A DNA stretch of 64,000 nucleotides from positions 62,001 through 126,000 of the forward strand of contig JBCCEW010000015.1 of assembly GCA_039030075.1 (NCBI GenBank). Direction: 5' to 3'. Below are positions 7,889 through 26,157 of this stretch, piece after piece. This stretch comes from Myxococcota bacterium (GTDB lineage: Bacteria > Myxococcota_A > UBA9160 > SMWR01). The notes beneath the pieces are model-generated. The model was not told the DNA's origin. It did no database searches and saw only the letters and a list, made by a program, of their open reading frames with translations. Numbering within the stretch: position 1 is the stretch's first letter; each line of letters starts with the position of its first letter. The position numbers and the translations under genes were made by a program.

Positions 7889-8946
7889 GCGCGCTCTCGA
7901 CCCAGGAGCGCTGGCTCGGGCGCTCCTTCGTGCACCCCGCGTACGACCTGCTGCTGATCGGTGGCGGCGCCAGCCTGATCGCCCTGATCGCGCTGTGGGC
8001 GTCAGGGGTCGGCGTCGGAGCCGACAGCGGTGACGCCGAGACGCTCTCGCGGCTGGCAGTGGTGCTCTTCCTCGCGAACAGCGCCCACTTCGCCTCCTCG
8101 ACGGTGCGGCTGTACACGAAGGAAGCGAGCTTCTCCCGCCATCCGCTGCTCACGATGGGGTTGCCCGCGGTCTTCGTCGGCATCCTGCTCCTTTGTCTGT
8201 GGCAGCCCGAATTGGTGGGCCGCCACTGGCAGGCGCTCTACCTGACCTGGTCGCCGTATCACTACGCAGCCCAGGCCTTCGGGATCGCTTCGCTCTACTG
8301 CACACGCGCTGGCCAACCGCTGGCATCGAACGAGCGACGCTGGCTGCGCATCGTCTGCCTGCTGCCGTTCTTCTACGCGTTCCTGGGAAGCCCCGTCACC
8401 GGTCTGGGGTGGTTGCTGTCGCCGGCGTGGATCACCTCGGTGCCCGGGCTTCCCCAGACGCTGGGCTGGCTGCAGTGGGTGCTCGCCGGTGCAAGCGTGG
8501 GGGGCCCAGCGGTGCTCTACCTATGGCTGCAGCGGCGCGCGGTGGGACCGATGCCGCTCGTGAGTCTGCTGGCGGTCCTGAGCAACGGGCTGTGGTTCGT
8601 CGTGTTCACCTACCTGGAAGCGTTCGTGTGGGCAACCGTGTTTCACGGGCTCCAGTACCTGGCCCTCGTGCTGGTCTTCCACGTCCGCGAGCGTTGCCCG
8701 GGGCCGGCGCCGCTGCGGGCGGTGGCTGGCCAGGCCCTGGGCTTCTATGCGGCGTGCGTGGTCCTGGCGTACCTGCTCTTCCAGGTCACTCCCTACGCCG
8801 GCTGGGCGCTCGGATTCGGCTGGGCCGAGAGTGCGATCCTGGTGGTGGCGACGATCAACATCCACCACTTCGTCGTGGACGCGTTCATCTGGCGCTTCCG
8901 TCCCTCGGACAGCAATCGGCGGACCCTCGATCCGGCACCGGCGTGA
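7885..8946 (+). CDS. Polytopic membrane protein with conserved-looking histidines, unknown function
   Basis: 353 residues. The ATG at 7885 overlaps the preceding stop as ATGA. Roughly nine to ten hydrophobic segments are visible. Histidines sit in or beside several of them: NSAHFASS (about residue 67), SPYHYAAQ (about 120), VFHGLQYL (about 255) and NIHHFVVDAF (about 312). This spacing of His, Asp and Trp in membrane helices resembles membrane metalloenzymes such as diiron or Brp/Blh-type proteins, but I cannot assign it to one. It lies between a TPR protein and an HTTM protein with overlapping stops and starts on both sides, so the products probably act together in the inner membrane. Confidence 0.75.
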   Translation: MSALSTQERWLGRSFVHPAYDLLLIGGGASLIALIALWASGVGVGADSGDAETLSRLAVVLFLANSAHFASSTVRLYTKEASFSRHPLLTMGLPAVFVGILLLCLWQPELVGRHWQALYLTWSPYHYAAQAFGIASLYCTRAGQPLASNERRWLRIVCLLPFFYAFLGSPVTGLGWLLSPAWITSVPGLPQTLGWLQWVLAGASVGGPAVLYLWLQRRAVGPMPLVSLLAVLSNGLWFVVFTYLEAFVWATVFHGLQYLALVLVFHVRERCPGPAPLRAVAGQALGFYAACVVLAYLLFQVTPYAGWALGFGWAESAILVVATINIHHFVVDAFIWRFRPSDSNRRTLDPAPA

Positions 8947-10334
8947 GCGCGCTCCGCGAGGCGTGCGCGCGCGTCTTCGCGCTCGATCTGCGCTCGCTCG
9001 GCGTGTTCCGGATCTTGCTCGGGGTGCTCGTCCTCGGCGACGCCTGGAGCCGCGGTCGCTTCGCCGCCGCGTTCTACAGCGACGCAGGCTTTCTGCCGCG
9101 CGCCCTGGCGCGGGAAGTGGCGCCCGAGTGGGTCGTGCCGATCCACTTCTGGTCCGGCGCGCCTTCCGTCGAGACGGCGCTGCTGGCCGTGAGCGGCGTG
9201 CTGGCGACCCTGCTGATTCTCGGGATTGCGCCGCGCTGGATGTGCCTCTCGCTGTGGGTGCTCGGGCGATCGCTCGTGCAGCGGAACCCGATGGCTTCCT
9301 ACGGTGCCGACTCCCTGTTGCTCTGGCTCTTGTTCTGGGGGGCGTGGTTGCCACTCGGCGAGCGCTTCGCGTGGCGGCGGGGAGGCAGGGCGTCCGACGC
9401 ATCGCCCACCGTGTGGTCGGCGGCCAGCGTCGGACTCTCGCTGCAGGTCCTTTGGCTCTACGTCTTCGCGGGCGTCGAGAAGACCGGTCCGATGTGGTTC
9501 GACGGGACGGCGCTCAACAACGCGCTCGGGCTCTCGTATTGGCAGCTGCCCGTCGGGCAGTTCCTCCGCAGTTTCCCGGCCCTGTGCGCTGCGTTGACAC
9601 CGGCCGTGCTCGTCTTCGAAGTGGCGGGGCCGCTGCTGCTCTATTCGCCCTGCAAGACGGTTCCGATCCGGACCGTCGGGATTCTGGCGTTCCTCGGGTT
9701 CCAGCTGGGGCTGGGGCTCTCCCTCGATCTGGGTTGGTTCCCGCTGGTCTCGAGTCTGGCGCTGGTGCCCTTGATCCCGGGCGCACTCTGGGACCGCTGG
9801 GGAGCGGCCGAGCCGCGCTGGAGTGCCGCCCCTCGCTGGACGTCGGGAGTCGGCGCCAGTCTCGCCGTCGCAGGGCTACTCGTGGCGAGCGTGGGGGTCG
9901 GTGTCGGGTTTCGTCTCGACGTCGACCTCTGGCCGGCCTCCCTGAACCGCGCCCTCGAGACCGCGGGGCTTCAGCAGCGCTGGGAGATGTTCAAGAACGT
10001 CCCGCCCTTCGATACGCGTCTGGTGCCCCACGGCGTGTTGGAGGACGGGCGTCGCGTCGATCTCTCGCGCTTCGCCGATCCTGGCTGGGCGCCGGTACGT
10101 GAGGCGCTCGGGACCACGCGCGGTCGGCGCTACCAGGTATGGCTCGCGACCCATCCGGCGCCGCGGCACCACCAGCGGATGGCGCGCTGGCTGTGCCAGC
10201 AGTGGCGGGACGCGGAGGTTTCCGAAGGGGCGCTGCGCGAGGTTCGGCTGTTCCGCGTCCGGCGCGTGTTCACCCCTGACGGGGGCTACGGCGAGCCCGA
10301 GCCCGTGCTTCGCCAACGGGTGGCGTGCAACTGA
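8943..10334 (+). CDS. HTTM domain protein (vitamin K-dependent gamma-carboxylase-like)
   Basis: 463 residues starting at a GTG that overlaps the previous stop (GTGA at 8943-8946). The opening LDLRSLGVFRILLGV and the following helices match the HTTM family, bacterial relatives of vitamin K-dependent gamma-glutamyl carboxylase. About eight transmembrane helices precede a soluble tail containing QQRWEMFKNVP, typical of the family's end. The real reaction of bacterial HTTM proteins is mostly unknown. It is the last gene of the 4614-10334 operon; 25 bases separate it from the convergent end of the next gene. A longer in-frame extension to 8193 is open but lies wholly inside the preceding gene and is not used. 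Confidence 0.85.
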   Translation: MSALREACARVFALDLRSLGVFRILLGVLVLGDAWSRGRFAAAFYSDAGFLPRALAREVAPEWVVPIHFWSGAPSVETALLAVSGVLATLLILGIAPRWMCLSLWVLGRSLVQRNPMASYGADSLLLWLLFWGAWLPLGERFAWRRGGRASDASPTVWSAASVGLSLQVLWLYVFAGVEKTGPMWFDGTALNNALGLSYWQLPVGQFLRSFPALCAALTPAVLVFEVAGPLLLYSPCKTVPIRTVGILAFLGFQLGLGLSLDLGWFPLVSSLALVPLIPGALWDRWGAAEPRWSAAPRWTSGVGASLAVAGLLVASVGVGVGFRLDVDLWPASLNRALETAGLQQRWEMFKNVPPFDTRLVPHGVLEDGRRVDLSRFADPGWAPVREALGTTRGRRYQVWLATHPAPRHHQRMARWLCQQWRDAEVSEGALREVRLFRVRRVFTPDGGYGEPEPVLRQRVACN

Positions 10335-10359: not shown

Positions 10360-11019
10360 CTAGAAGCGGTACTGGAGACCGCCCGATACGTCGACGAAGG
10401 GGAAGCTCTCGCCGAGCAGGCGTCGCTCCGAGTAGATCGTGCTCGCTTCGACGTTCAGCACCACGTTGCGGCTGAGGTAGACCTCGAAGCCACCGCCGAC
10501 CCGCAGGTTCAGCTCCCAGTGATCGTCGCGGAAACCGACGCGAGTGGTGGGCGTACAGGCGTTCCCCGCTGCGTCGAAGTTGACCTGGCGCACCGAGGTC
10601 TTGTAACGACCGGCGCCCACGCCGCCGAGCAGGTAGGGGTGCACCGCATCGAAGGGCGCGAAGACCTTCACGTTGCCGGTGATGATCTGCGCGTTCGACT
10701 TCGAGCAGCGCTCGTTCCGCGTCTCCGAGTCCCACTCGCGGACCCACTGGTACTGGCCCTCGATCGCGATGTTCTTGTGCACCCGCACGCCAGCCCGTCC
10801 GCTGATCGCGAGGCTGGGCTGCTCTTCGACCCGGCTCTCGAAGGGCGGCGGCGTAAAGAACGTCTCGCCTTCGAAGTTGGGAAGCGCGGCCCCGAACAGC
10901 ACGCCGATGTACGGACCGGTGCGGTGCGACTCGATCTCGTCGTCGGCCTGCGCCGTCGACGCGAAGAGGGCGGCCAGCAGGAGCGCCCCGGTCGTTGCAA
11001 GGATTCGCATGAGGTGCAT
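10360..11019 (-). CDS. Outer-membrane beta-barrel protein (OmpA/OprF N-domain-like)
   Basis: 219 residues from the ATG at 11019, which shares a base with the upstream stop (TGATG). The N-terminus MHLMRILATTGALLLAAL with TAQADD is a signal peptide. The mature part has alternating-residue beta strands (GPYIGVLFGAALPNF, NIAIEGQYQW, HWELNLRVGGGFEVYL) and ends in GGLQYRF, a C-terminal aromatic BAM signal. The size fits an eight-stranded barrel. It is the last gene of the minus-strand operon starting at 18358. An earlier in-frame GTG at 11037 is less likely. Two cysteines fall in predicted loops. Its exact role, porin or structural, cannot be read from the sequence. Confidence 0.8.
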   Translation of the reverse strand: MHLMRILATTGALLLAALFASTAQADDEIESHRTGPYIGVLFGAALPNFEGETFFTPPPFESRVEEQPSLAISGRAGVRVHKNIAIEGQYQWVREWDSETRNERCSKSNAQIITGNVKVFAPFDAVHPYLLGGVGAGRYKTSVRQVNFDAAGNACTPTTRVGFRDDHWELNLRVGGGFEVYLSRNVVLNVEASTIYSERRLLGESFPFVDVSGGLQYRF

Positions 11020-12122
11020 CAGAACAGTCCCTTCCACACCACGCGGAAGCCTCCGCCTCCGCGGAACACGACCGGCCCGATCTCGGCCCTGGAAATGATC
11101 CCGATGGCGCCGCCGCCGGGATCGACGGGCGGGCAGAGGTCCGGCGGCGTGATCGTCAGCCCTTCCGGGTTCTCTTGAACGCAGCTTCCGGGGCCGCGAG
11201 TGCTGGTGCCCGCGTAGTCGATGCTGCGGTTGTGCATGATCCAGTAGATGCCGGACTGGGCAAAGAACTCGAAGACCATGTTCCCGACCTTCGCGACCTC
11301 GACGTCGATCTCGACGCGCGGCCCGAAGCCCTGGGCCCAGACCTCGCCGCTCTTCGCGCGAACCTCATTGGTCTGGCTGAAAGTGAACTGGTAGCGCTCG
11401 ACGCCCAGTCGGGCTGGGTCGTTGCCGCCGTTGATCGCGTTGCCGGCCTGGTTCTGGCCGGCGGTCGTGACATTGAGCACGTTGGTCTCGCCCTTGTAGG
11501 ACTGGGCGAACCAGTTCATCGAGGGGCGGAGGTGGAAGTTGTAGTTGCCGACGGGCAGGGTCAGATCGATGCCGAGGCCGGCGAAGACCGATCCGTTCAC
11601 GATGACGTCCTGGCGTGCCCGGACTTCGCAGGTACCCGCGGTAAAACTCGGGAAGTTGAAGGGATTGGCCTGGGTGGGCAGCGTGGCGCAGCTGCGGTCG
11701 AAGGCCGCGTTCTCGGCGGCCGGGTTCACCGGGTTCCGGTTCAGGGTGTTCAGCGAGTTGGTCGCCAGGTGTTCGTTCGTGAAGGGAACCGACCCGCCGC
11801 CGTGGATGAAGAAACGCGGCTTCCAGGCGCTGTCGCCCATGGTGGGCGCGAACAGCATGGCCTGGGCTTCCGAGAAGGCGAAGCGAATGCTGTTGGGGCG
11901 GTTCTCACCGGTCTCGGCGAAACCCGGGAACACATCGCCGCGCACTTCCTGCGAGTGGACGCCGAACCCGATGGACAGGGCAGGCTCCCAGCCGCGCGGG
12001 GCGATGTTGACCGCTTCTTCTTCCTCGGCGAGGGCAGGCAACGCGAGGAGGCAGCCGACGGCGCACAGGCCGAGGGCCCGGCGCGCGAGGTGGCTGCGGT
12101 GATTTCGGGCAGGACCCATCAT
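11019..12122 (-). CDS. Predicted outer-membrane beta-barrel protein, unknown family
   Basis: 367 residues. The start ATG at 12122 overlaps the upstream stop as ATGA; a second ATG follows directly. A signal peptide (GLCAVGCLLALPALA) precedes a mature protein with strand-like stretches: WEPALSIGFGVHS, FAGLGIDLTLPVG, YNFHLRPSMNWFAQSY and FEFFAQSGIYWI. It ends GGGFRVVWKGLF with a terminal phenylalanine as in BAM substrates. A cysteine-containing segment near residue 165 (RSCATLPTQ... GTCEVRA) may form a disulphide-stabilised loop. Its stop overlaps the start of the smaller barrel protein downstream, so the two are translated together. I do not recognise a named family. Confidence 0.75.
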   Translation of the reverse strand: MMGPARNHRSHLARRALGLCAVGCLLALPALAEEEEAVNIAPRGWEPALSIGFGVHSQEVRGDVFPGFAETGENRPNSIRFAFSEAQAMLFAPTMGDSAWKPRFFIHGGGSVPFTNEHLATNSLNTLNRNPVNPAAENAAFDRSCATLPTQANPFNFPSFTAGTCEVRARQDVIVNGSVFAGLGIDLTLPVGNYNFHLRPSMNWFAQSYKGETNVLNVTTAGQNQAGNAINGGNDPARLGVERYQFTFSQTNEVRAKSGEVWAQGFGPRVEIDVEVAKVGNMVFEFFAQSGIYWIMHNRSIDYAGTSTRGPGSCVQENPEGLTITPPDLCPPVDPGGGAIGIISRAEIGPVVFRGGGGFRVVWKGLF

Positions 12123-13333
12123 GAGGCGACCTCCGCGAGGGCGGCTTCGAGCTTCGTTCGGTCTGCGTCGCTCAGCTCGGTTTCGGTGAGCCAGCTCGCG
12201 GCCGACTCGGGCTCCGACGTGGCCCAGCGCTTCAGCACCGTGGTGAGTGCTTCGTCGCGGAGCGCCTCGTCTTCCAATTGCTGCGCCCAGCCGAGTGCCT
12301 GGGGCGGATCCACGTCTTGCAGACCGACGATGATCTCGGGAATGGCTTCCTGGATACGGGGTTGGGCCTTCTGGCCGTCCAGGAAGCGCTCGGCTCGATC
12401 GGGGTGGGTGCCGGCGAAGCGTTTGATCAGCCGCGCGACGGCGAAGCGACCGCGTTGACCCGGCTTCGTCACGCGCATCACCCAGGCGATGGCGCTCTCG
12501 GGGTCGACTTCGGTCCACTGCTCGCCGACGGCCGTCGGCACGATCATCCAATAGTCTTCGTCGGGGCGCGCCTCGAACCAGGCCGAGGCCTGTTCGGGGT
12601 CCGCCGTGGCGGTCCAGCGCGCCGTCAGGCCGGCGAAGTCGCGCTTCTGTTGCTTGTCGAGGGCGGGCAAGATCGTCTCGAACCAGGACAGGGCCTGGGG
12701 GACACCCCCTTCGATGAGCTGCGCACGGAGCAGGCTCTCGACCACGCGGTTGCGGCCATTCCCCTCCGGAAGTTCGAGGAGGTAGGCATTCGCCCCGGCC
12801 AGATCTCCCGCGCGGGTGCGCCCTTCGACGTAGAACGCGCGGGCCGGGTCGGCCACGCGTCCCTGGGTGAGCTCCCCGAGCAGGGACACCACCTCGTCGT
12901 GACGTGCCGCGAGACCCATCGCGTACGCGATCTGGCGCATGCCCCAGGAGCGGCGCTCGAGCTTCTCCCAGGTCTTCACGTAGGCGCTGGCTGCGCCGGG
13001 ATCGAAGCGCGACCAGCCGGCGATGAACGGGGCGAGGTCGCACTCGATCGTGAACTCGTGCTCGCGCTCGTAGCCCGCGCGGATGGCCGGCAGCGTCTCC
13101 GGCGAGAGCTCCTCCAGCGCACCGAGGAGGAGCGCCTCGCGCTCCAGATAGTCGGCCGTGCGCAACGCGGTTGCGACCTGATCTTCGAGAGCGAGGGCTT
13201 TCGCGTCGCCCCCCGAGGCCGGATCGTGCCACGCGGCCGCGAGGCCGAACATGATGCCGGCCAGGACGGCGACGAGTGTGACCGCCGCGCTGCCGCGCTG
13301 CCGCCGCGCCTGCTGGGTTCCGACGCTTCGCAT
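12119..13333 (-). CDS. Membrane-anchored helical-repeat (solenoid) protein, paralogue of upstream gene
   Basis: 404 residues. An N-terminal hydrophobic segment (VTLVAVLAGIMFGLAAA, about residues 19-35) follows a basic stretch, so the protein is probably anchored in the inner membrane with the rest in the periplasm. The body is alpha-helical with a degenerate repeat of about 35 residues marked by DP followed by A and W: DPEQASAWFE, DPESAIAWVM, DPPQALGWAQ, EPESAASWLT. The same pattern occurs in the gene immediately upstream (13333-14364), suggesting duplication. Start and stop overlap neighbours on both sides (TGATG and ATGA). The repeats look like a TPR/Sel1-type protein-binding solenoid, but no specific family is assigned. 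Confidence 0.78.
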   Translation of the reverse strand: MRSVGTQQARRQRGSAAVTLVAVLAGIMFGLAAAWHDPASGGDAKALALEDQVATALRTADYLEREALLLGALEELSPETLPAIRAGYEREHEFTIECDLAPFIAGWSRFDPGAASAYVKTWEKLERRSWGMRQIAYAMGLAARHDEVVSLLGELTQGRVADPARAFYVEGRTRAGDLAGANAYLLELPEGNGRNRVVESLLRAQLIEGGVPQALSWFETILPALDKQQKRDFAGLTARWTATADPEQASAWFEARPDEDYWMIVPTAVGEQWTEVDPESAIAWVMRVTKPGQRGRFAVARLIKRFAGTHPDRAERFLDGQKAQPRIQEAIPEIIVGLQDVDPPQALGWAQQLEDEALRDEALTTVLKRWATSEPESAASWLTETELSDADRTKLEAALAEVAS

Positions 13334-14364
13334 CAGAACGCCCTCCGGCCGCGTCCCTGGGGCGTCCAGAGCGTAACGATCTTCTTCGCCAGCTCGGGCT
13401 TCAGGTCGGCGTCACGCACCCAGGTCATGGCCGCGAGCTGATCGCGCGCCAGCCAGAGCTTCATGATCCGGAGCACCGCGAAGTCGCGTTCGTCGGTCTC
13501 GGGGAGCGCCATCACCCATTCGAGCGCCGCGTGGGGGTCGTTGCGCGACCAGCCGAGGGTGAGCGACTGGAGCGAGCCCTCGTGATAGGGCTTCCCCTCG
13601 TTCGCCTGATACCAGTCGATCGCCTTCTTCGGGTCGGCGTTCGAGAGCTGGCGGAGCGTGTTGTCGTAGACGGCCGCCTTGAAGTTGTTCGGTGCGTCAT
13701 CCGGAACGTCCGCGGCCCACTCCATCAGATGGTCTGCACTGTGGTCGTAGAGCAGCGGCCCGGCGATGTACATGAGATACATGCGATTGCGAACCTGACC
13801 CGTGTCTTCCGGGAGTCGCGCGAGATAGGTGGTGACGCCGTCGATGTCGTCGGAGCGGGCCCAGCCTCGGATGGCTCCCGTCATGGCCGACTCGCGTGCC
13901 TCGAGGTTCGGGATCGATTCGGCCGAGGTCACCGCCTCGAGTCCCCCGCCGCCGATCGCCCAGCCGTAGGACGCCGCGTGCAATCCCACCCCGCGCTTGC
14001 GGGCGCCGGTCCAGGACAAGGACTGCTCGAAGGCGCCGCGCGGATCGAAGGAGGCGCGGGCGTGCATGAACTGCCCGACCTCGCAGCTGTGGGACGGGAT
14101 CACCAGCTCGTCGACGGCTCGCGCGGCCTCTTCGACGTTGCTCTCGTCGAGCTGCGCGCCGACCGCGCGCATGGCGAGTGCGCGATCGAGGACGTCGGGC
14201 TCGAGCAGGGCCGCCCGCGTGGCGGCGTAGAGGTTGGTCGACACCTCGCTGCTGGACGCGCGCTCCGGGACGCCGGGCGGGCCCATCCAGTGGCCGATGC
14301 CGAACCCGGCGACGCCTCCGACGAGGATCGCGAGGAGGAGCTGGAACAATCGGGATCCGCTCAT
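13333..14364 (-). CDS. Membrane-anchored helical-repeat protein, paralogue of downstream gene
   Basis: 343 residues. The N-terminus SRLFQLLLAILVGGVAGFGIG forms one membrane anchor. The rest is helical with the same W-x-DP-A-W repeat style as the downstream gene: DPKKAIDWYQ, DPHAALEWVM, then a WLARDQLAAMTWV unit; an early copy reads DPRGAFEQSLSW. It starts two bases after the stop of the TonB-dependent receptor gene and its own stop overlaps the next start. Because both repeat proteins sit directly behind the receptor, they may scaffold or help the receptor or handle its substrate in the periplasm. That is inference from position; the sequence gives no catalytic motif. Confidence 0.78.
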   Translation of the reverse strand: MSGSRLFQLLLAILVGGVAGFGIGHWMGPPGVPERASSSEVSTNLYAATRAALLEPDVLDRALAMRAVGAQLDESNVEEAARAVDELVIPSHSCEVGQFMHARASFDPRGAFEQSLSWTGARKRGVGLHAASYGWAIGGGGLEAVTSAESIPNLEARESAMTGAIRGWARSDDIDGVTTYLARLPEDTGQVRNRMYLMYIAGPLLYDHSADHLMEWAADVPDDAPNNFKAAVYDNTLRQLSNADPKKAIDWYQANEGKPYHEGSLQSLTLGWSRNDPHAALEWVMALPETDERDFAVLRIMKLWLARDQLAAMTWVRDADLKPELAKKIVTLWTPQGRGRRAF

Positions 14365-14366
14365 GA

Positions 14367-16907
14367 TTACCAGCGCACCGTGGCGCTCACGCTGTAGGTG
14401 CGCGGCGGGCCAATGGCGTAGAGGACGGCCTGGCGGAAGCGCGTCAGCGAGATGGCGTCGGCCCGGAACACCGTGTCCTGGAGGTTGCGGACCGAAGCCG
14501 CGATCTCGATCGCTTCACTCGGGGAACGCCAGGCGAGTCGGATGTTGAAGAGCCAGAGCGCCTCCTGGCCGAGGAACTCCTGATTGTCGACGCTGAAGAA
14601 CACCTCGTCCTTGAAGCTCCAGTCGAAGCGGGGCTGCAGGAAGCCCAGGCCTTCGAGGTCGAGGTCCCAGGCGACGAAGCCGACGAAGGAGAACTCGGGC
14701 GAGTTGATCAGGGTGTTGCCCGAGAAGTCGTCGGTGATGATCGGCTGCCCGGCCACCGCCGCGTTGACGCGCGTCTGCTGGAAGTCCTTGTAGGTCCCGA
14801 CCGTCCACGAGAAGCTCGTGAAGATGGTCAGGCCCTCGGCCTGGAGCGGGGCCCAGCCGGCGAAGGGCTGCAGGGTCGTTTCGAGCTCGACGCCGTAGAT
14901 CTCGGCGTCGTTCGCGTTGATCAGGGTCGGGACCGGAATGCCGGACTCGGCGTTTCGCAGCTGGAAGATCTGGATGTCGTCGTAGTCGTAGTAGAAGCCG
15001 GCGCCGTTGAACTGCAGGCGACGGTCGAACCACTGGGTCTTGAAACCGCCCTCGAGGACGTTCACGGTCTCGGGGTTCACAGGTTCGAGCGGATCGTTGC
15101 CACTCTCGAGGGTGGAGTTGTCGAGAACGAGGCCGTTGATGTGGGGGCCCTTCCAGCCGCGGCTCCACTTGCCGTAGATCGTGACGTCTTCGTAGGGCTT
15201 GTACTCGAGCAGGAACTCACCGGCCCAGTCCTGCTCGGTGATGTTCGTCGCGCCGCCGTCGCTCGAGATGCCGCCGAAGTTCACCCGGTCGAAGCGCGAC
15301 GCGGTGATCGTGAAGTCGCGATCGTCCCAGTTCCAACGGAAGCCACCCGAGAGCGTGAACTCCTCGGAGACGGCCCACTCGGCCCAGCCGAAGAGGGACC
15401 AGTAGAGGGTCTCCTGGGTGTAGCGCTGTCGGGTGACGGCGGCGGGCGTGCCGAGCAGGAAGCGGTTGTCGACCGCGAGTCGCTCCCAGAGCAGGGAGCC
15501 GCCCGTCTTCGCCTTGAAGCTGCGGCCGGCGTCGTAGGTGAGGACCAGGTCCTCGTAGAACTGGTAGGCCTGGTTCTTGTTGGTGGTCTCGAGGCCGATG
15601 TTCGGGCTGCCGTCGAGGTCGAGCTCACTCTTGCGCTTGTTCCAGTCGAGGCTGGAAACGGTGCGCAGGGTCCAGTCGCCCATGTAGATGTCGCCGCCGA
15701 GGGTGGCACCGGTACGATCGACGCGGTCGACGCCGACGTTGTTGTAGTCGCCGGCGAAGGGATCACCGAGTTCGGGCGAGTCGATGTTCTGGAAGCCGAT
15801 TCCCGGGCCCAGACCCTGGCCGGGACTGTTCAAGCAGGGACCGTTGCCCGCGCCGCAGACCGTGTTGTCCCAGTCGCGGTAGCCCGAGCTGTCAGTGCGG
15901 CCGAAGAGCGGTGTGCCCGTGGCGTCGCGCACGGCCAGGTGCTGGAGCTGGGGCGCCTGGGCCCGGTTCTGGCTGTAGGAGATCTTGAAGGTCCAGTCGT
16001 GGCTGCGGGTGGGCTGGAAGCGCAAGAGCGTTCGCGCCGCCCAGTTGCTCACGTTGTTCACCCGGTCGGGGACGTAGCCGGGAACGCCGCGGAGCCACCC
16101 AAGGCCGCCCTGTTCCAGCGGCGACGCGGTACCGATGTCGAAGGCGCTGGTGCCGCCGTTGAAGCACGACTGGAAGACCAGGGTGCGGAACGAGGTCGGG
16201 TCGGCATCGCGCTGCGAGTAGAAACCGTCACCGCAGCGGTTGTCGGTGATGCCGTCGCGCCGGTTCCAGACGCCGGATGTTCGCATCGAGAGCTTGTCGC
16301 CCCAGAGCGGAAGCTCGAGCGCACCTTCGGCCTCGCGCTGATTGAAGCGGCCGTAGGTGGTGCGCGCGTACCCGTTGAAGGTTCCGATCGGTCGACGCGA
16401 CACGATCCGGATCGCGCCGGCGGATGCGTTGCGTCCGTAGAGCACGCCCTGCGGTCCGCGCAGCACGTTGACGTCTTCGACGTCGAAGAGCTGGGACAGC
16501 TGGCCGACGGGCGAGTTCATGTAGACGTCGTCGTTGAAGACCGCGACGGAGCTGGAGGAGTTCGCGTTGAAGTCGCGGAGACCGACGCCGCGAATGAACA
16601 GGGTCGGGTTCGTGTTGGAGTAGGGCGAGCGGATCTCGAGGTTCGGCGTGAACTGGGCGACGTCCGCGATCGTCTGGGCGCCCAGCGCCTCGAGGTATTC
16701 CTGGTCGAAGGAGGTCGCCGAGACCGCGGTGTCCTGCAGCGCTTGGGACTGACCCGAGGAGGTGACGATGAACTCTTCGATACCGGGGGTCTGCTCTTCC
16801 GGCGGCTCGGATTCCTCGGCTTCTTCCTGCGCGAATGCCGGGCCCGCAAGGAGCAGGGCAAGGCACGCGGTGATCCACAGGGGCAGGGCTCGGAGCGGAT
16901 GGTCCAT
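14367..16907 (-). CDS. TonB-dependent outer-membrane receptor
   Basis: 846 residues with signal peptide (cleavage after about residue 26, AGPAFAQ), an acidic linker and a TonB-box-like EEFIVTSS. The plug domain follows, with the conserved TLFIRGVG and VLRGPQGVLYGRNASAGAI motifs near residues 80-140. The remaining ~650 residues form the 22-strand barrel with TonB-receptor repeats, for example YKPYEDVTIYGKWSRGWKG. The protein ends in SVSATVRW with a terminal aromatic. Start at the ATG 16907, with CGGAGG seven bases upstream. The open frame extends far upstream but overlaps the sulfatase gene there and is not used. It lies 71 bases behind the sulfatase-fold gene and just ahead of the repeat proteins. 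The substrate is not evident; energising could come from the TonB operon at 43066-50020. Confidence 0.95.
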   Translation of the reverse strand: MDHPLRALPLWITACLALLLAGPAFAQEEAEESEPPEEQTPGIEEFIVTSSGQSQALQDTAVSATSFDQEYLEALGAQTIADVAQFTPNLEIRSPYSNTNPTLFIRGVGLRDFNANSSSSVAVFNDDVYMNSPVGQLSQLFDVEDVNVLRGPQGVLYGRNASAGAIRIVSRRPIGTFNGYARTTYGRFNQREAEGALELPLWGDKLSMRTSGVWNRRDGITDNRCGDGFYSQRDADPTSFRTLVFQSCFNGGTSAFDIGTASPLEQGGLGWLRGVPGYVPDRVNNVSNWAARTLLRFQPTRSHDWTFKISYSQNRAQAPQLQHLAVRDATGTPLFGRTDSSGYRDWDNTVCGAGNGPCLNSPGQGLGPGIGFQNIDSPELGDPFAGDYNNVGVDRVDRTGATLGGDIYMGDWTLRTVSSLDWNKRKSELDLDGSPNIGLETTNKNQAYQFYEDLVLTYDAGRSFKAKTGGSLLWERLAVDNRFLLGTPAAVTRQRYTQETLYWSLFGWAEWAVSEEFTLSGGFRWNWDDRDFTITASRFDRVNFGGISSDGGATNITEQDWAGEFLLEYKPYEDVTIYGKWSRGWKGPHINGLVLDNSTLESGNDPLEPVNPETVNVLEGGFKTQWFDRRLQFNGAGFYYDYDDIQIFQLRNAESGIPVPTLINANDAEIYGVELETTLQPFAGWAPLQAEGLTIFTSFSWTVGTYKDFQQTRVNAAVAGQPIITDDFSGNTLINSPEFSFVGFVAWDLDLEGLGFLQPRFDWSFKDEVFFSVDNQEFLGQEALWLFNIRLAWRSPSEAIEIAASVRNLQDTVFRADAISLTRFRQAVLYAIGPPRTYSVSATVRW

Positions 16908-16978
16908 GGAGAAGCCTCCGGACGTCCGGGCGCGCGGGCGGCCAAACCGCAGCGCGCCGTGGCGGGCAGGTCGGGTGC

Positions 16979-18358
16979 TCATTCGATCTCGTATCCAAGG
17001 GCTCGGAGTTGTTTCAGGCTGAGATCGTCGATCTCGACCGTCGGAGCGTCGCCGGCCGACCACGCGACGCCGCGCGCCACTTCGTCGGCGGCCATCTGCT
17101 TCAGCCGCTCGACCTCCGGGTGGTCGATGGGCAGCGGCCGCTTCTCCCCAGGATCCGTGGCGAGGTCGTAGAGCTCGCTCTTCTCGGGATCGTTCACGTG
17201 GTAGACCATGCGGAGGTTGCCTTCGCGGAACGCCAGGATCGGGTCCGGCTCTTCGCTCATGCGGCCCCAGGTGCGGTCCAGAAAGTCCACACCGATGTCC
17301 GGGTGGTCTCCCGGGGCGTCGTTCGTCATTTCGGCGACGTACGAGCGCCCGTCCACCGGGGACAGCGGGGGCAGGTTGAGGAGGTCGAGGAGCGTCGGCC
17401 AAACATCCACGTTGTGGCTCGCTTCCTCGACCACAATGCCTGGTTCGAGGCGAAAGGGGAAGCTCAAGATGAACGGCGTGTAGGTGACTTCCGGGTGGAG
17501 ATCCCGGGCGTGACCCTCGCGGCCGTGCTCCCCGAAGGCCTCCCCGTGGTCCGACGCGATCACGATCAGCGTCTTCTCGCGAAGGCCGAGCTTCTCGAGC
17601 CCGCCGATCAGCGCCTGGACCTGCTTGTCGGTCCACAGGATGGAATTGTCGTAGAAGTCCGAGTAGCTCGTGCCGAAGACCGAGAGTTCCTCGACGGTCA
17701 CGTACTGGTGCACGTCCATCAGATGGACGTAGAGGAAGAACTTGCGGTCGGTGTTCGAGCGCAAGAACTCGAGCCCCGAGAAGACGAGGTCGATGTCTGT
17801 GCCGTCGATCCGGCCGGCGCGGGCTTCGCGTCGGAGCGACTTCGGCGCCTGCTGGCGGTAGGGGTTCACGTACATGTCGAACCCCTGGCCGAACTGGAAG
17901 TTGGGAGCGAGCCAACCGTTTCGCCAGATACCGGCCGTCGTGTAGCCGGCGGCCTTGAAGATCTCGGCGGGCGTGGTGGCTTCTTCGGCCAGCGCGTCCG
18001 CGAAGCGCTCGACGCCCGTGCGCAGCGGGTTCAGGCCCGTCCACAGCGACGCCATCGAGCACTTCGTCCACGACGACTGGGCGCGGTGCAGCGCGAAGCG
18101 CGCCCCGGTGTCGGCCAGGTAGTCCATGTAGGGACTGGTGTCGCGCTCGTACCCGTACGAACCCAGGCGATCGGATCGCAGGGTGTCGATCAGGATGAAC
18201 AGGACGTTCAGGTCATCCCGTTCTGCGAGCTTCTTGACGTCTTCGACCGTTCCCAGCGGGCGAGGATCCTGTTGGATCTCGAGCTGGTTCCAGACGTAGA
18301 GGAGCGCCAAGACGAGCACCGCCACGAGGGCGAACGCTCTCGACTTCAGAAGGTTCAC
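16979..18358 (-). CDS. Membrane-anchored sulfatase-fold hydrolase with Thr at the nucleophile position
   Basis: 459 residues from a GTG at 18358. A membrane anchor (residues 8-24) is followed by an alkaline-phosphatase-superfamily domain. Metal and catalytic motifs: ILIDTLRSD (Asp58), SSWTKCSMASLWTG, YVHLMDVHQYV and ASDHGEAFGEHG near residue 267. Classical sulfatases have Cys or Ser in C/S-x-P-x-R for formylglycine. Here Thr98 takes that place and the Arg is Met, as in the Thr-type phospho- and sulfo-hydrolases or transferases of the superfamily. Formylglycine maturation is therefore not expected. It is the first gene of the operon with the TonB-dependent receptor and probably faces the periplasm. 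The substrate may be a sulfate, phosphate or phosphonate ester. Confidence 0.87.
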   Translation of the reverse strand: MNLLKSRAFALVAVLVLALLYVWNQLEIQQDPRPLGTVEDVKKLAERDDLNVLFILIDTLRSDRLGSYGYERDTSPYMDYLADTGARFALHRAQSSWTKCSMASLWTGLNPLRTGVERFADALAEEATTPAEIFKAAGYTTAGIWRNGWLAPNFQFGQGFDMYVNPYRQQAPKSLRREARAGRIDGTDIDLVFSGLEFLRSNTDRKFFLYVHLMDVHQYVTVEELSVFGTSYSDFYDNSILWTDKQVQALIGGLEKLGLREKTLIVIASDHGEAFGEHGREGHARDLHPEVTYTPFILSFPFRLEPGIVVEEASHNVDVWPTLLDLLNLPPLSPVDGRSYVAEMTNDAPGDHPDIGVDFLDRTWGRMSEEPDPILAFREGNLRMVYHVNDPEKSELYDLATDPGEKRPLPIDHPEVERLKQMAADEVARGVAWSAGDAPTVEIDDLSLKQLRALGYEIE

Positions 18359-18495: not shown

Positions 18496-20970
18496 TCAAC
18501 CCTCCGGCGCGGGGCGCAATGCGTCGAGTGCGGCGCGCGTCTGCTCGGCTTCCGGGAACTCGCCCATCGCCAGTGCGGTCTCGAAGCTGCGGATCGCGGC
18601 GTCCTGGTCGCCCGCGTCGGCGAGCGCCGAACCGATGCGGTAGAGCCCGCCGGGACGCCCGCCGCTCAGCGACGCGGCGCGTCGTAGCGACTGGACGGCC
18701 GCCTGGGTCTCTTCGCGCGCCAGCTGGACGCGGCCCAGGGTCTCGAACGCGTCGGGACCCGGATCGGCGAAGAAGATCGAGGCCTGTTGGGCGTCGCGCA
18801 GGGTCTCGTCGCCGTGATCGCCGCCCTCGAGGCGGAGCGCGGCGAGCTGCTGGGCGGCGCGCCCCTCCCACGGCTGGTCTATCAGGAGCTCGCGCAGCCG
18901 CGTGGTGGCCCGATCGTGGTTCCCAGCGCCGATCCACATCTCGGCGAGCGCGTAGATCGGTGTCGGGTCGCGCGGATCCGCATCGAAGGCCGCTTCGTAG
19001 CCGGTGCTCGCCGCTTCGAGCTTCCCGTCTTCGCGGTCGAGCTGCGCCCGCGCCATCAACGCCTGCTTGTGTTCGGCGTCGATCGCCAGGGCGCGCTCCA
19101 ACGCCCCGCGTCCATCGGCGGGCCGCTCGAGCAGAACGAGTGCCACCCCGTGAAGCGCCTGCACGTCGGCGACGTCCGGATGCGCCTCGACCACCTTCTC
19201 GACCCGCGGCAGTCCCTCCTCGGCTCGCCCGAGTCGCGCCATGCGCTCGAACCAGGCGGCGAGGGCTTCGATGTTCGCGACGTCGTCGAGCTCGATCGTG
19301 ACGTCCTTCTCGAGGAACTCGAGGGCGCGCTCCGGGCCGTTCAGGGCGTCGAGGTCGCGCGCCTGGTCGGCCACGGCCTCGCCGACCCGGTTGTGGTTGA
19401 CCGCCAGGCCCGAGCGGGCGGCGCCGAGCACCTCGTTGTTCCCCACCCGCGCCGCCAGCCGTGCCTGCACGCGCAGCGCCTGGATGTCATCGGGGTGACC
19501 GAGCATGTGGTAGTTCAGCGGATCGAGCGCGAGCTTCGGCTCCCCCCGCGCGGTGTGGACCCGCGCGAGGACGAAACCCGCGTCGGTCGCCGACGAATCG
19601 GCGCGCAGGGAATTCCGGAGGTGTTCGATGGCGCGGCCGTCTTCCCCGAGGCGGAGCGCGGCGATCCCCGCCAGGTAGCGGGCGCCCGCGTTCGATGGGA
19701 AGGCGCGGAAGGCCTCTTCCCAGACGTCGAGGGCCTCGGCGAGCTGACCCTGTTCGTAGAGCAGGCGCGCTTCGAGCAGACCGTCGAGGGACTTCTCGGT
19801 GAGCTTCGACTGCATCTCGCGGGCGCGTTCGTAGTCGCCGTTGATGGCCATGACGATCGCGCTCTCGAACAGGTGCTGTTCCGGGATGCGCGCGTAGTCG
19901 AAGTTGGCGCTGTCGACCGGATGGCGGGCGAACGCACCGAGTAGCTGGTCCGAGGCTCGCTTCGCGCCCGGCAGGTCGTCCTCGTCGATCAGGAAGTTGC
20001 GGAGCAGGAGCCAGCTCTTCGGGGTTTGCAGGCGATCCGCCGCGTCCTCGAGCATCTTCCGCGCTTCATCCCGCTCGCCCATGTCGGCGAGCCGCACCGA
20101 GATGGCGCGGAACAACTCCATGTCGTTCGGTCGTTCCTCGGCTTTCGTGCGCAGGATCTCGAGGGCGCGCTCGGGCTTGCGAACCGCGTCGAAGAACTCG
20201 ACCGCCGTCAGGAAGACCGCCTGGCTCTCGGGGTGATCGGCCAGACACGCTTCGATCTTCGCTTCCGCCGCTTCCTCTTCGCCGCGGCTGCGCTCGAGCC
20301 CGGCCTCTCGCGTGCACAGGAGCGCGAAGGCGTGGTCGCCGATGTCGTCGCGCGCTTCGACTGCCGTCCGGAGCGCTTTCAGCTCCGACGCGGCGTCGTC
20401 GAATCGCTCGAGGTCGACGAGCGCGCTGAACTTCTGCTCGCGCAGATTCAGTTCGTCGGGGAAGGCCGCGATCAGCAGGTCGAGATCCTCGATGGCCTCC
20501 GGGTTGTCGCGGTTCTGCTGGCGTGCGCGCAGACGGAGCCGGACCGCCTCCTTGTTGTCCGGTTCGATGGCGAGGATGCGCTCGGCAGCGCGGACGGCGT
20601 CGTGGTTGTTGTTCGTGTTCACCAACGAATGGGCCAGCGCCATGTTGGCCGGCACGGCGTAGTCCGGGTGGGAGGCCGCGCGGCGTAGAGGCCAGGCCGC
20701 CAGGCTGGGCTGTTGATTGGTGATCAGCGCCCGGCCGTACATCAGGTTGATCTGCGGATCGTCCGGATTCTTCTCCACGGCCTCCCGCAGGATCTCGAGC
20801 GCCGGATCGAGCTCGCCGGCCTTGATCAGCTCGCGCGCCTGCTCCGCGGGGTCGGTTCCGCAGGCGATCGCCCCCAGCAGCGGGATCAGGGCGCAGATCA
20901 GTGCGAAGAGGCGGCTCCCCCGGGGATTCCGATGCCCCTCGGGGACCGCGGTTCGTGACGTCTCGGACAT
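18496..20970 (-). CDS. Large TPR-repeat lipoprotein, possibly PEP-CTERM-system related
   Basis: 824 residues. A basic N-terminus and hydrophobic segment lead to a lipobox ending at Cys37 (LLGAIACG). The rest is a continuous array of TPR units, for example ALEILREAVEKNPDDPQIN near residue 56, AERILAIEPDNKEAV and ALERALAIDAEHKQAL. Architecture and length resemble PrsT, the TPR lipoprotein of exosortase/PEP-CTERM loci. A PEP-CTERM substrate gene lies divergently at 21187, which supports a link, but no exosortase or polysaccharide genes are in the window. The start ATG at 20970 follows a run of A residues and a weak GAG. The outer-membrane or periplasmic location is inferred from the lipobox. Confidence 0.85.
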   Translation of the reverse strand: MSETSRTAVPEGHRNPRGSRLFALICALIPLLGAIACGTDPAEQARELIKAGELDPALEILREAVEKNPDDPQINLMYGRALITNQQPSLAAWPLRRAASHPDYAVPANMALAHSLVNTNNNHDAVRAAERILAIEPDNKEAVRLRLRARQQNRDNPEAIEDLDLLIAAFPDELNLREQKFSALVDLERFDDAASELKALRTAVEARDDIGDHAFALLCTREAGLERSRGEEEAAEAKIEACLADHPESQAVFLTAVEFFDAVRKPERALEILRTKAEERPNDMELFRAISVRLADMGERDEARKMLEDAADRLQTPKSWLLLRNFLIDEDDLPGAKRASDQLLGAFARHPVDSANFDYARIPEQHLFESAIVMAINGDYERAREMQSKLTEKSLDGLLEARLLYEQGQLAEALDVWEEAFRAFPSNAGARYLAGIAALRLGEDGRAIEHLRNSLRADSSATDAGFVLARVHTARGEPKLALDPLNYHMLGHPDDIQALRVQARLAARVGNNEVLGAARSGLAVNHNRVGEAVADQARDLDALNGPERALEFLEKDVTIELDDVANIEALAAWFERMARLGRAEEGLPRVEKVVEAHPDVADVQALHGVALVLLERPADGRGALERALAIDAEHKQALMARAQLDREDGKLEAASTGYEAAFDADPRDPTPIYALAEMWIGAGNHDRATTRLRELLIDQPWEGRAAQQLAALRLEGGDHGDETLRDAQQASIFFADPGPDAFETLGRVQLAREETQAAVQSLRRAASLSGGRPGGLYRIGSALADAGDQDAAIRSFETALAMGEFPEAEQTRAALDALRPAPEG

Positions 20971-21186
20971 TTTTTTCTCGACCTCGGAGAGCCCGCCGGC
21001 ATAAAATCAGTGCCGACTGACAACTGGGGATGGCGCGCCCGCAGGCTAGTACCGCATTTGGTTGCGGATCCTACTGGGCTGGAACGTGCCGACCCGCCCG
21101 TTGCGAAGGTCGCGGCGAGCGGAAAACGGTCTCGATGCATAACACCATCGGACCATCTTGGGTTCATCGTAATCATGAGGAAATCG

Positions 21187-22320
21187 ATGAAGACGAATCA
21201 CTTAGTAGCACTGTGCGCGCTCGCGCTCGCCGCGATCGCCATGCCGGCCACGGCCGCGATCGTCGAGTTCGACTCGACCACGACGGCGGGTCTCGGCGAC
21301 GGCGGTAACCCGGCGACGCTCGACGTCTCGCCGAACGGTCTGCCGATCTGCAACATGGGGCTTCAGCCCCACCTGAACGCTTCGCTCCCGGGCCACGGCT
21401 TCGCCGATCTCGGCACGGTCGCGCCGCGTTCGCTGATGGCGGTTCGCCCGTTCAAGTACGGCACGGCCGGCGCCACGACCGGTAACGCCACGATCATGGC
21501 GCGCCCCGGTAACGCGGGCGTCAACGGTCTCCCGCAGTACGTGTCGAGCACCTGCAACATCCCGTTCCCGACCGCGTTCCTGCCGGCGATTCTCGCCGGT
21601 CGTACGCAGTTCTCGCGCCTGACGGCTCCGGCCGACAACGCGATTACGACGACCACGACGGCGATGGGCAAGATGAACTTCATGGTCACGACCATGGGTC
21701 TCGAGCCGCATCACCTCCGCGCGGGCGGCGGTCCCGGCAACTTCACGTTCATGGTCCCCACGGTCTTCTCGCCGATGCAGACGATCATGGGCACGGCCGG
21801 CGCCAACACCTTCGGTGGTGGCTGGCGTGGGTCGGGCGGTGGTCGCGTGAACCTGGCCGTGAACGCGGCGCCTGGCGTCGTGATCTCCGGCTACTGGCTC
21901 ACCGGTCCCCGGAAGCTCGGTCACAACGACCCGGTGAACACCCAGCTCGTGACCCAGTCCGGTCTCTTCACGAACCTGGCGACGATGGGCGTGGCTCCGG
22001 TCACCCTGCGCGTCTGGAACGCCCGCTTCACGACGGGCATGGTGAAGGCCGAGGACAACGGCGGTCAGTTCATCACGATCCGCACCCAGACGGGCGCCGA
22101 CAACCGGTCGGGCGCGTCCTCGAGCATGGGTACCCTCCTGCTCGTGACGCCCTGGACGGCGAGCCTGATCCCGTTCCTGGGCGGCGCTGCGAACCTGTAC
22201 TTCGGTGGTACGGGTACGACGCGCTTCGAGTTCCTGCCTGAGCCCGGCCCCACGGCCCTGCTCGCGGCGGGCGTCCTCGGCGTGTTCGCGCTCCACCTGG
22301 TGGCGCGACGCCGCAAGTAA
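21187..22320 (+). CDS. PEP-CTERM sorting domain protein
   Basis: 377 residues from the ATG at 21187 with AGGA five bases upstream; an ATG at 21175 would place the Shine-Dalgarno inside the gene. The signal peptide is MKTNHLVALCALALAAIAMPATA. The mature protein is rich in Thr, Gly, Asn and Met (many TTTTTAMG-type runs) without a recognised domain, as is usual for exosortase substrates. The C-terminus carries the tripartite sorting signal: LPEPGPTALL, a hydrophobic helix, then the basic tail RRRK. It is probably cut by an exosortase and displayed or secreted. Its codons favour C-ending forms strongly, suggesting high expression. A strong terminator follows 36 bases after the stop. Confidence 0.9.
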   Translation: MKTNHLVALCALALAAIAMPATAAIVEFDSTTTAGLGDGGNPATLDVSPNGLPICNMGLQPHLNASLPGHGFADLGTVAPRSLMAVRPFKYGTAGATTGNATIMARPGNAGVNGLPQYVSSTCNIPFPTAFLPAILAGRTQFSRLTAPADNAITTTTTAMGKMNFMVTTMGLEPHHLRAGGGPGNFTFMVPTVFSPMQTIMGTAGANTFGGGWRGSGGGRVNLAVNAAPGVVISGYWLTGPRKLGHNDPVNTQLVTQSGLFTNLATMGVAPVTLRVWNARFTTGMVKAEDNGGQFITIRTQTGADNRSGASSSMGTLLLVTPWTASLIPFLGGAANLYFGGTGTTRFEFLPEPGPTALLAAGVLGVFALHLVARRRK

Positions 22321-23682: not shown

Positions 23683-26157
23683 TCAGGCGCGCACCCGCGC
23701 CCCGGTCGGGTCGAACCAGGGGCGCAGGGATGCCTCGGCCGAGATCCGCCGGCCCGCCACTTCGAGCTCGTAGGTGCCCGCCCGGATCCAGTCCGGCCGT
23801 ACCGGGGCGTCGGGCTCCGGTGCGCGCACGTAGCCGAGCCCGAGTGCCGCGCCCAATTGGTGTCCGAAGGCGCCCGAGGTGATGTGACCCACGCATTCCC
23901 CGTCGCGCCAGACCGGTTCGTCGTGGAAGAGCAGGGCGCCGGATTCGTTCAAGCGAAATCCGACGAGTCGCTTTCGAACCCCGCGTTCGCGCTGGGCAAA
24001 GAGGGCGTCCCGACCGATGAAGTCGCGACCGCTCTCCCAGTCGACCGCGAAGCCCAGCCCCGCTTCCAGCGGTGTGTCCTCAGGCGTGACGTCGTGGCCC
24101 CAGTGGCGATAGGCCTTCTCCATCCGAAGCGCGTCGAGGGCCTGGTAGCCCGCCAGTTGGAGGCCGTGCTCCGCGCCCGCGGCGGTCAGCGTGTCGAGGA
24201 CGCCCACCGCGAACTCGCTGGGGATGTAGAGCTCGAATCCCAGCTCGCCGACGTAGGTGATGCGGTGCGCGCGCACCCGCGCGTAGCCCAGGGCGATCTC
24301 TTGGCTCGTGGCGAAGGGAAACGCGTCGTTGGAGAGATCGGCGTCGGTGAGGCTCTGGAGCAGGTCCCGCGCTCGCGGTCCCATGACGCCGAGCACCGCC
24401 CAGGCCGAGGTGATGTCCGACAGCGAGACGCGCTCACCCGGCGCGATCCGGCTGCGCAGCCAGGCTTCGTCGCGCACGCGCTGGGCGGCCCCGGTCACGA
24501 TCCAGAACCGCTGCTCGTCCAGGCGCGTCACGGTGAGGTCCGACTCCATGCCCCCGCGCTCGTTGAGCCAGGCCGTGTACACGACGCGTCCGGGCTCGAT
24601 GCAGAGGTCGGCTGCACACACGCGGTCGAGCACCGTCTCGGCGTCGGGGCCGTCGAGCAGCAGCTTTCCGAAGGAGGTCTGGTCGAAGACACCGACGGCG
24701 GTGCGCACCGCCTGGTGTTCGATCGCGACGTGGTCGAACCAGGGCGGCCGCCGGTAGCTGTAGTCGAGCCTCGGAGGGGCACTGGGGCTCCCAAATCCGC
24801 TCGGACTCCCATAGAAGTATGGGCGTTCCCAGCCGGCCAGCTCGGAGAAACAGGCGCCTGCCCGCGCGAGCCGATCGTGAAGGGGCGACCGCCGGGCTCC
24901 CCGCGCCGTCGCGTACTGGCGATGGGGCCAGTGCATGGCGTAGAGCAGGCCCAGGGACTCCACCGTCCGGTCTTCGAGGTAGTCGGGGTTGGCGTGGAAG
25001 GGCTCGAACCGGCGCAGGTCGACATCCTGGAGGTCCATGCCCGGGTGGCCGTCGACGATCCAGTCGGCGAGGGCGCGTCCCGCTCCCCCGGCGGAAGCGA
25101 TTCCCACGGAGTTGAAGCCCGCCGCGACGTAGTAGCCGCCGAGTTCGGGCGCTTCGCCCAGCAGGTAGCGATCGTCCGGGGTGAAGCTCTCGGGGCCATT
25201 GAAGAACTGGCGGATACCGACGGTCTCCAGAGCGGGCACCCGTCGGGCGGCTTCGGCGATCCAGGGCTCGAGGTGCGGCCAGTTCTCGGGTAGGGAATCG
25301 AAGGCGAAGCCTTCGGGAATGCCAGACTGCCCCCACGGTCGCGCTTCGGGCTCGAAGAACCCGACCAGCAGCTTCCCGCCGGCCTCGACCTTGAAGTAGG
25401 CGCAGCCGTCCGGGTCCCGAAGCGTCGGGAGCGCGTCGGCCACACCGGGGACGGGTTCCGTGATGAGGTAGAAGTGCTCGGCAGCATGGAGCGGGACCGA
25501 CACGCCGACGCCGCGGGCCAGCTCGCGCGCCCACATCCCGCCGCAGTTCACCACGACATCGGTCTCGATCTCGCCCCGGGCGGTGACCACGGCGCAAACC
25601 CGACCGCCACGCGTGCGGACCGCGGTGACCGGGCTGTTCTCGACGAGTCGGGCGCCGCGCTGCCGGGCCCCCGCGGCCAGCGCGAGGGTGACGTCGACGG
25701 GGCTCACCTGACCGTCCCCCGGAATCTCCACGGCACCCGCGAGATCGTCGGTGTGCGCGATCGGCCAACGCCGCGCGACCTCATCGATGCTCACCTCACG
25801 GGCGTCGATCTCGAAGGCGCGCGCCATGGACGCCCCACGCAACAGCTCTTCGAGGCGCTCCGGCGTTCGCGCGACCGACAGCGACCCGGTCCGCGCGTAA
25901 CCCGTCGCCTGGCCGGTCTCAGCTTCGAGGCGCGCGTAGAGCTCGGCCGAGTAGCGCGCGAGACGCGAGAGGTTGTGGGAGGCGCGCAGCAGGCCGACCA
26001 GCCCGGCGGCGTGCCAGGTGGTGCCGCAGGTCAGCCGCTGGCGTTCGAGCAGGACCACGTCGGTCCAGCCGCGCTGCGCCAGATGATAGGCGACACTACA
26101 GCCCGCCACGCCGCCGCCGATGATGACGGCCGAAGCGCGGCGCGGCAGATCAGTCAT
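23683..26157 (-). CDS. Dimethylglycine/sarcosine dehydrogenase-like flavoprotein (DAO + GCV_T)
   Basis: 824 residues in the family layout. The N-terminal DAO domain has GGGVAGCSVAYHLAQRG (residues 14-30). CGTTWHAAGL follows, whose His49 matches the covalent FAD-binding histidine of dimethylglycine and sarcosine dehydrogenases. A linker (FAO_M) spans about 370-430, the aminomethyltransferase (GCV_T) domain about 430-700 (GVFDQTSFGKLLL), and the GCV_T C-terminal barrel closes the protein. The likely reaction is oxidative N-demethylation of dimethylglycine or sarcosine with transfer of the one-carbon unit to tetrahydrofolate. The start overlaps the end of the AGCS symporter gene by eight bases, so import and oxidation of a methylated glycine are probably coupled. 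The exact substrate is not determined. Confidence 0.9.
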   Translation of the reverse strand: MTDLPRRASAVIIGGGVAGCSVAYHLAQRGWTDVVLLERQRLTCGTTWHAAGLVGLLRASHNLSRLARYSAELYARLEAETGQATGYARTGSLSVARTPERLEELLRGASMARAFEIDAREVSIDEVARRWPIAHTDDLAGAVEIPGDGQVSPVDVTLALAAGARQRGARLVENSPVTAVRTRGGRVCAVVTARGEIETDVVVNCGGMWARELARGVGVSVPLHAAEHFYLITEPVPGVADALPTLRDPDGCAYFKVEAGGKLLVGFFEPEARPWGQSGIPEGFAFDSLPENWPHLEPWIAEAARRVPALETVGIRQFFNGPESFTPDDRYLLGEAPELGGYYVAAGFNSVGIASAGGAGRALADWIVDGHPGMDLQDVDLRRFEPFHANPDYLEDRTVESLGLLYAMHWPHRQYATARGARRSPLHDRLARAGACFSELAGWERPYFYGSPSGFGSPSAPPRLDYSYRRPPWFDHVAIEHQAVRTAVGVFDQTSFGKLLLDGPDAETVLDRVCAADLCIEPGRVVYTAWLNERGGMESDLTVTRLDEQRFWIVTGAAQRVRDEAWLRSRIAPGERVSLSDITSAWAVLGVMGPRARDLLQSLTDADLSNDAFPFATSQEIALGYARVRAHRITYVGELGFELYIPSEFAVGVLDTLTAAGAEHGLQLAGYQALDALRMEKAYRHWGHDVTPEDTPLEAGLGFAVDWESGRDFIGRDALFAQRERGVRKRLVGFRLNESGALLFHDEPVWRDGECVGHITSGAFGHQLGAALGLGYVRAPEPDAPVRPDWIRAGTYELEVAGRRISAEASLRPWFDPTGARVRA

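Follow-up and report, generated by a model that had tools for sequence, protein, structure and literature searches.

Polysaccharide utilisation loci of the SusCD type, found in Bacteroidota, couple a TonB receptor to a surface-exposed partner and an envelope enzyme, and occur in several paralogous copies per genome. ZepA, a PEP-CTERM exoprotein, has a role in zinc supply, and its genomic neighbours include TonB-dependent transporters and other PEP-CTERM genes (PMC10957091). The XrtA/PEP-CTERM/EpsH system ties a tetratricopeptide repeat (TPR) lipoprotein, PrsT, to PEP-CTERM proteins (PMC1569441), and in Myxococcus xanthus the Oar/PopC pair links a TonB-dependent receptor (TBDR) to an extracellular protein through TBDR-dependent secretion (PMC6434023). 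A locus with likenesses to each of these systems was analysed in a 64,000-nucleotide stretch of a Myxococcota bacterium genome (assembly GCA_039030075.1, contig JBCCEW010000015.1, positions 62,001 to 126,000), henceforth referred to as the window; all coordinates are counted from its first letter. The locus is a new, order-specific variant of TonB receptor locus. Its complete form, referred to as the module, is defined by four core genes encoding a TPR lipoprotein (TPR), a membrane-anchored sulfatase-fold enzyme (SULF), a TBDR and a helical solenoid protein (H), and a PEP-CTERM surface protein (PEPC) also belongs to it. No literature on this gene set was found in the open text of PMC (open-licence papers).

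Paralogous copies of the module usually number several per genome, as in SusCD loci, but the module lacks SusD, its TBDR is not of the SusC/RagA type, its partner is exosortase-tagged, and its enzyme is neither a glycoside hydrolase nor a formylglycine sulfatase. With the ZepA system it shares a PEP-CTERM exoprotein with a putative nutrient-supply role and neighbouring TonB-dependent transporters; however, SULF, TPR and H are not mentioned among the ZepA neighbours in the available part of that description (PMC10957091), and the module showed neither Zur nor zinc genes. Unlike the XrtA/PEP-CTERM/EpsH system, the module is not an exopolysaccharide locus, and its TPR protein falls far under the PrsT cut-off (best NCBIfam match TIGR02917, 150.9 bits against a cut-off of 312). 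The sigma-54 motif of the classic PEP-CTERM regulon was likewise not enriched upstream of PEPC genes (mean 4.1 vs 4.8 in shuffles). The Oar/PopC system comes from the same phylum, but the CarboxypepD_reg domain is missing from the N-terminus of the window TBDR, in which only the plug and the barrel scored above cut-off.

The original prediction described six genes at 10360-18358 as one operon and inferred from them the uptake of an ester substrate. All six genes were confirmed on the minus strand, with very short or overlapping junctions: SULF (16979..18358), the TBDR (14367..16907), H1 (13333..14364), H2 (12119..13333), OM1 (11019..12122) and OM2 (10360..11019). The SULF stop codon occupies 16979-16981, leaving a gap of 71 nt to the TBDR ATG at 16907; a possible alternative TBDR start, ATG 16982, overlaps that stop codon (ATGA). 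The H1 ATG at 14364 follows the TBDR stop after 2 nt, H1 and H2 overlap by 1 nt at 13333, and H2 and OM1 overlap at 12119-12122. The OM2 ATG at 11019 overlaps the OM1 stop, and the listed GTG start at 11037 is therefore probably six codons too early. A sequence scan gave no promoter-like matches inside the six genes, terminator-like sites did not exceed their frequency in shuffled sequence, and no Rfam elements were found in the region. The unit is larger than these six genes. TPR (18496..20970, minus strand) lies upstream of SULF on the same strand, and PEPC (21169..22320, plus strand; alternative start 21187 possible) is divergent from the operon; both belong to the conserved set. The gap of 137 nt between TPR and SULF could be the place for an independent promoter, and one locus, L068, which bears on the same question, carries a PEP-CTERM gene between the two. 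The boundaries first drawn thus enclose a genuine unit but are too narrow, and the functional reading is upheld in part: conserved gene content bears out a functional unit, whereas uptake of an ester substrate stays conjectural, no gene that would specify a substrate having been found. TPR and the sorted surface protein, the partners that recur most constantly, had been missed.

Conservation of gene content was observed well beyond the window. A congener (L039) carries six orthologues in the same order, with identities of 67% for SULF, 66% for the TBDR, 40% for H1, 35% for H2, 43% for OM1 and 53% for OM2. The window arrangement was found again, with small differences, in six other loci (L067-L072), so that the absence of conserved order, named beforehand as contrary evidence, was not encountered. 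Order is kept only in these nearest copies and is strongly rearranged beyond them: H, TPR, SULF, TBDR and OM1 may follow one another in that order on alternating strands, or TBDR, H, TPR and SULF may stand in a row. A fixed co-directional operon across the order was rejected on account of these varying gene orders. OM1 recurs beside the TBDR in many modules, and OM2 is conserved sporadically, in few loci.

Co-occurrence was assessed in two samples. In the H-centred sample, drawn from the surroundings of the best H relatives (20 loci), TPR was present in 20/20, the TBDR in 19/20 and SULF in 14/20, and in most of the loci without SULF a contig end lies close by. The SULF-centred sample comprised 80 loci, the best 80 of 236 hits from a pattern scan that was the only search to reach other phyla. 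Of the 24 SULF loci flanked on each side by 9 kb or more, 22 contained TPR, 14 the TBDR, 15 H and 13 all three. Removal of duplicate loci left 30 distinct complete modules. Pairwise distances across these modules correlated for every gene pair (rho 0.44-0.74, permutation p 0.001), a correlation to which uncontrolled relatedness of the host genomes contributes, and on this basis the module genes appear to be inherited together. H was confined to one uncultivated Myxococcota order, occurring in 29 of 284 sampled genomes (E below 1e-20). The SULF subfamily (E below 1e-100) was present in nearly every sampled genome of the order, and only weaker relatives were found outside it, in seven sister-family genomes of the class and the rest of the phylum (best 3.7e-82). 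All member genomes are metagenome-assembled; their labels are Myxococcales, Myxococcota or Deltaproteobacteria, and some records bear odd names. Two of these oddly named ones (L092 and L095) can be recognised from identical hit coordinates as genomes G221 and G273 of the order.

The receptor is a TBDR by domain content, with a plug (PF07715, 2.4e-16) and a barrel (PF00593, 2.9e-30), and scored 22.6 bits against the SusC/RagA model TIGR04056 (cut-off 368). The predicted lack of SusD was borne out by the whole genome, which contains no PF07980 match. Module TBDRs form a subfamily of their own, the window receptor scoring 1048 bits on the module profile vs at most 274 bits in the genome's TBDR regions outside the two full modules. 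TBDR genes of the order also tend to lie near PEP-CTERM genes, with 8 of 18 within 5.1 kb, a threshold picked after data inspection, vs 1.64 expected (P=7.7e-5; PF07589, three genomes). As a separate observation, PEP-CTERM genes were recognised by C-terminal pattern near 7 of 9 other TBDR regions of the window genome (L153-L160). Such closeness is general in the order and extends beyond the module, including in G056 and G021.

SULF matches PF00884 (5.7e-43) and, by fold and metal ligands, is a member of the alkaline phosphatase superfamily. Its sequence is nearer to S1 sulfatases, which are also its best solved relatives. Alignment to the solved sulfatases 7oz8 and 5g2v placed Thr98 at the formylglycine position. 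This threonine was invariant in 83/83 subfamily members and in 14/14 more distant relatives (97/97), as were Asp58, Asp270, His271 and His283 in the same alignments. The Cys or Ser of the C/S-x-P/A-x-R motif of formylglycine sulfatases was absent; all 83 members contain Thr-Lys-x-Ser-Met, with Met rather than Arg at position +4, which refutes a formylglycine mechanism for SULF. The known formylglycine-generating enzymes do not act on threonine. The sulfatase fold first proposed is confirmed, the altered nucleophile having escaped the original prediction; from its residues, SULF is probably no ordinary sulfatase. The same residues fit a metal-dependent phospho-hydrolase or transferase that would use threonine as its nucleophile. 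In this respect SULF resembles EptA/MCR, LtaS and phosphoglycerol transferases, which are likewise membrane-anchored, with threonine at the nucleophile position and Asp-His metal residues. However, it is closer to S1 sulfatases, and the equivalog models of these transferases remained far below their cut-offs (at most 38.4 bits vs 404-1250).

The partner of SULF, the 824-amino-acid TPR protein, carries a lipobox (...GAIAC) and is matched by Pfam TPR models. TPR repeats and a related SULF domain occur in a single reading frame in two genomes (L166 2512-6207 and L167 9093-12983), and these fusions, which belong to a more distant SULF group, support the conclusion that enzyme and TPR protein work together.

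The PEPC protein is a secreted exosortase substrate by its signal peptide, PEP motif, transmembrane segment and basic tail, the last three forming the C-terminal PEP-CTERM sorting signal (FLPEPGPTALLAAGVLGVFALHLVARRRK). The genome contains three strong exosortase genes and one weak one, together with about 70 PEP-CTERM genes. The PEP motif, hydrophobic stretch and basic residues are kept in 26/26 aligned relatives, and NCBIfam PEP-CTERM models match members of the family, the window copy itself giving no match. In another arrangement of the module the surface protein belongs to family C053, of which some members have an IPTL-CTERM-like end (with IPTL scores below cut-off) and others PEP. A PEPC- or C053-family protein was encoded in 32/34 loci with all four core genes. 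Where a PEP-CTERM gene was found, the nearest one lay at a median of 140 nt from SULF and within 1 kb in 29/45 loci. The overall count was 64 vs 13.5 expected from the rate in the window genome, though this comparison runs across different genomes and combines two methods of detection.

H1 and H2 are homologous, N-terminally anchored alpha-helical solenoid proteins, H1 (family A3) containing DP-x-A-x-W repeats. The AlphaFold model of H2 is a continuous alpha-solenoid (pLDDT 92.3, pTM 0.82). No Pfam or NCBIfam family match was obtained for H1, H2 or OM1. No solved structure was close to H by sequence, and by fold only generic PPR, HEAT and TPR solenoids were retrieved, with low TM-scores. Since most H proteins have an N-terminal hydrophobic anchor and a crude motif test detected a lipobox in only 6 of 52, they are most likely periplasmic and anchored rather than surface-exposed like SusD. 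H as a surface stand-in for SusD was disfavoured on the same grounds. Of the two outer-membrane proteins, OM1 (family A4) is a probable beta-barrel with a signal peptide and a C-terminal Phe, and OM2 is a small beta-barrel matching PF13505 (OMP_b-brl, 6.4e-13).

Our tentative reading is that the module takes up and processes a ligand in a TonB-dependent way, with an exosortase-sorted surface protein in the position of SusD. Under this scheme, the PEP-CTERM protein, once exported, would be cleaved by an exosortase of the genome and presented on the surface, where it would capture the ligand. The ligand would then pass to the periplasm through the TonB receptor, possibly with help from OM1 and OM2, as the receptor's family suggests. 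There, membrane-anchored SULF, held by the TPR lipoprotein, would process it by means of its threonine nucleophile and metal site, presumably with the chemistry of a phosphoester-type hydrolase or transferase and not that of a formylglycine sulfatase. The H solenoids, from their predicted fold, may serve as periplasmic scaffolds joining enzyme and receptor. The co-inherited, dedicated TBDR subfamily, the ZepA precedent and the closeness of TBDR and PEP-CTERM genes in the order are consistent with uptake, which we hold as a possibility still short of probable. Also in its favour are the sorted surface protein at 32/34 four-gene loci, the correlated distances, the lack of SusD, the exosortases, the catalytic threonine, the TPR-SULF fusions and the fold of H. 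Its wider form, in which PEP-CTERM and IPTL-CTERM-like proteins would be the dedicated surface partners of TonB receptors in the order (a non-SusD mode of capture), with the threonine-type enzyme and TPR adaptor as processing arm, is doubtful. Several observations weigh against uptake. The module genes revealed neither an enzyme that would specify a substrate nor a regulator or inner-membrane importer, the window TBDR resembles solved receptors in the plug region only, and the beta-rich AlphaFold model of PEPC (pLDDT 54) was too low in confidence for a fold search. The usual neighbour of PEPC is SULF or TPR, not the TBDR; PEP-CTERM genes were present in 18 of 30 loci without TBDR and H; and they stand in tandem beside SULF in G021 (four genes) and G056 (two). 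As SULF and TPR accompany PEP-CTERM genes at such loci, the tie between enzyme and sorted protein needs no uptake receptor.

These receptor-less loci and tandem genes, like the short distance from SULF to the nearest PEP-CTERM gene, would be expected if SULF and its TPR adaptor transferred a phosphorylated group to the sorted protein or to its lipid or glycan anchor. The action would resemble that of phosphoethanolamine or phosphoglycerol transferases, with the TBDR, H and OM1 added later to make use of the modified protein or to expose it. Such modification is rather unlikely and ranks second to uptake. The threonine nucleophile, the Asp-His metal residues and the TPR-SULF fusion agree with it, and in PEP-CTERM systems covalent modification may be guided by the TPR protein PrsT, as Haft et al. 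suggested (PMC1569441). However, it gives no reason for SULF and TPR to co-vary with H solenoids and with a dedicated TBDR subfamily, and the phosphoethanolamine and phosphoglycerol transferase models all scored below cut-off. The genome also encodes few SULF-A genes against its roughly 70 PEP-CTERM proteins, so SULF is not a general modifier. Uptake and surface-protein modification can form one scheme.

Nearly every full module pairs its own cargo-like sorted protein with its own TBDR, and together with the Oar precedent in the same phylum (PMC6434023) this pairing could instead reflect TBDR-assisted export of the sorted protein. Export of this kind is improbable, as the window TBDR lacks the N-terminal domain that marks the Oar subclass, and the genome has many PEP-CTERM genes without a TBDR in their neighbourhood, so export is not generally TBDR-dependent. 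A locus that uses sulfated glycans in the conventional way, by means of a formylglycine sulfatase, would account for the fold of SULF and its best solved relatives, yet it is very hard to reconcile with the missing Cys/Ser-x-Pro-x-Arg motif, the SusD-less genome and the scanned module genes, none of which encodes a glycoside hydrolase or polysaccharide lyase. That the genes form a chance run of unrelated neighbours, as their differing order and strand between loci might suggest, is refuted for practical purposes by the content kept through rearrangements in 30 loci and by the correlated distances.

Further genes were observed in and around the modules. Three neighbouring genes of the window, at 3-1343 (minus), 1465-4416 (minus) and 4530-7424 (plus), encode fused major facilitator superfamily (MFS)/spermidine-synthase-like proteins. 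The last is a membrane protein with C-terminal TPR repeats (NF037959, 65 bits vs cut-off 40); it and the second gene (PF01564, 2.9e-9), of the same family, are possible accessory genes. This family occurs in about 30 loci, within or next to many modules, with some copies between H and TPR. An HTTM-domain (PF05090) membrane protein gene at 8193-10334 (plus) is convergent with the operon, and the congener has a homologue in the same place (L039 9427-11040). In one module type, at L129:15181-17388, L136:9157-11367 and eight more loci, OM1 is directly followed by an unclassified membrane protein gene, whose product shows weak C-terminal TPR matches in one member and an N-terminus (DDAWLHLALG) that by eye is like that of a GT-C glycosyltransferase. 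FG-GAP/UnbV_ASPIC proteins adjoin the PEPC gene in one module type (L077:2896-6123 and L079:5650-8070). The gene at 23683-26157 (minus) appears by eye to encode an FAD-dependent dimethylglycine dehydrogenase-like protein, and a DAO-family gene lies near other modules too (L082:2777-4252).

For this lineage, genes annotated as sulfatases can be without the sulfatase nucleophile, and sulfatase counts are then not a guide to the use of sulfate esters. PEP-CTERM proteins are numerous in environmental bacteria, and most are without an assigned role; the module, in which particular PEP-CTERM families go together with a single TonB receptor subfamily, a single enzyme and a solenoid family not classified before, offers a concrete and testable one.

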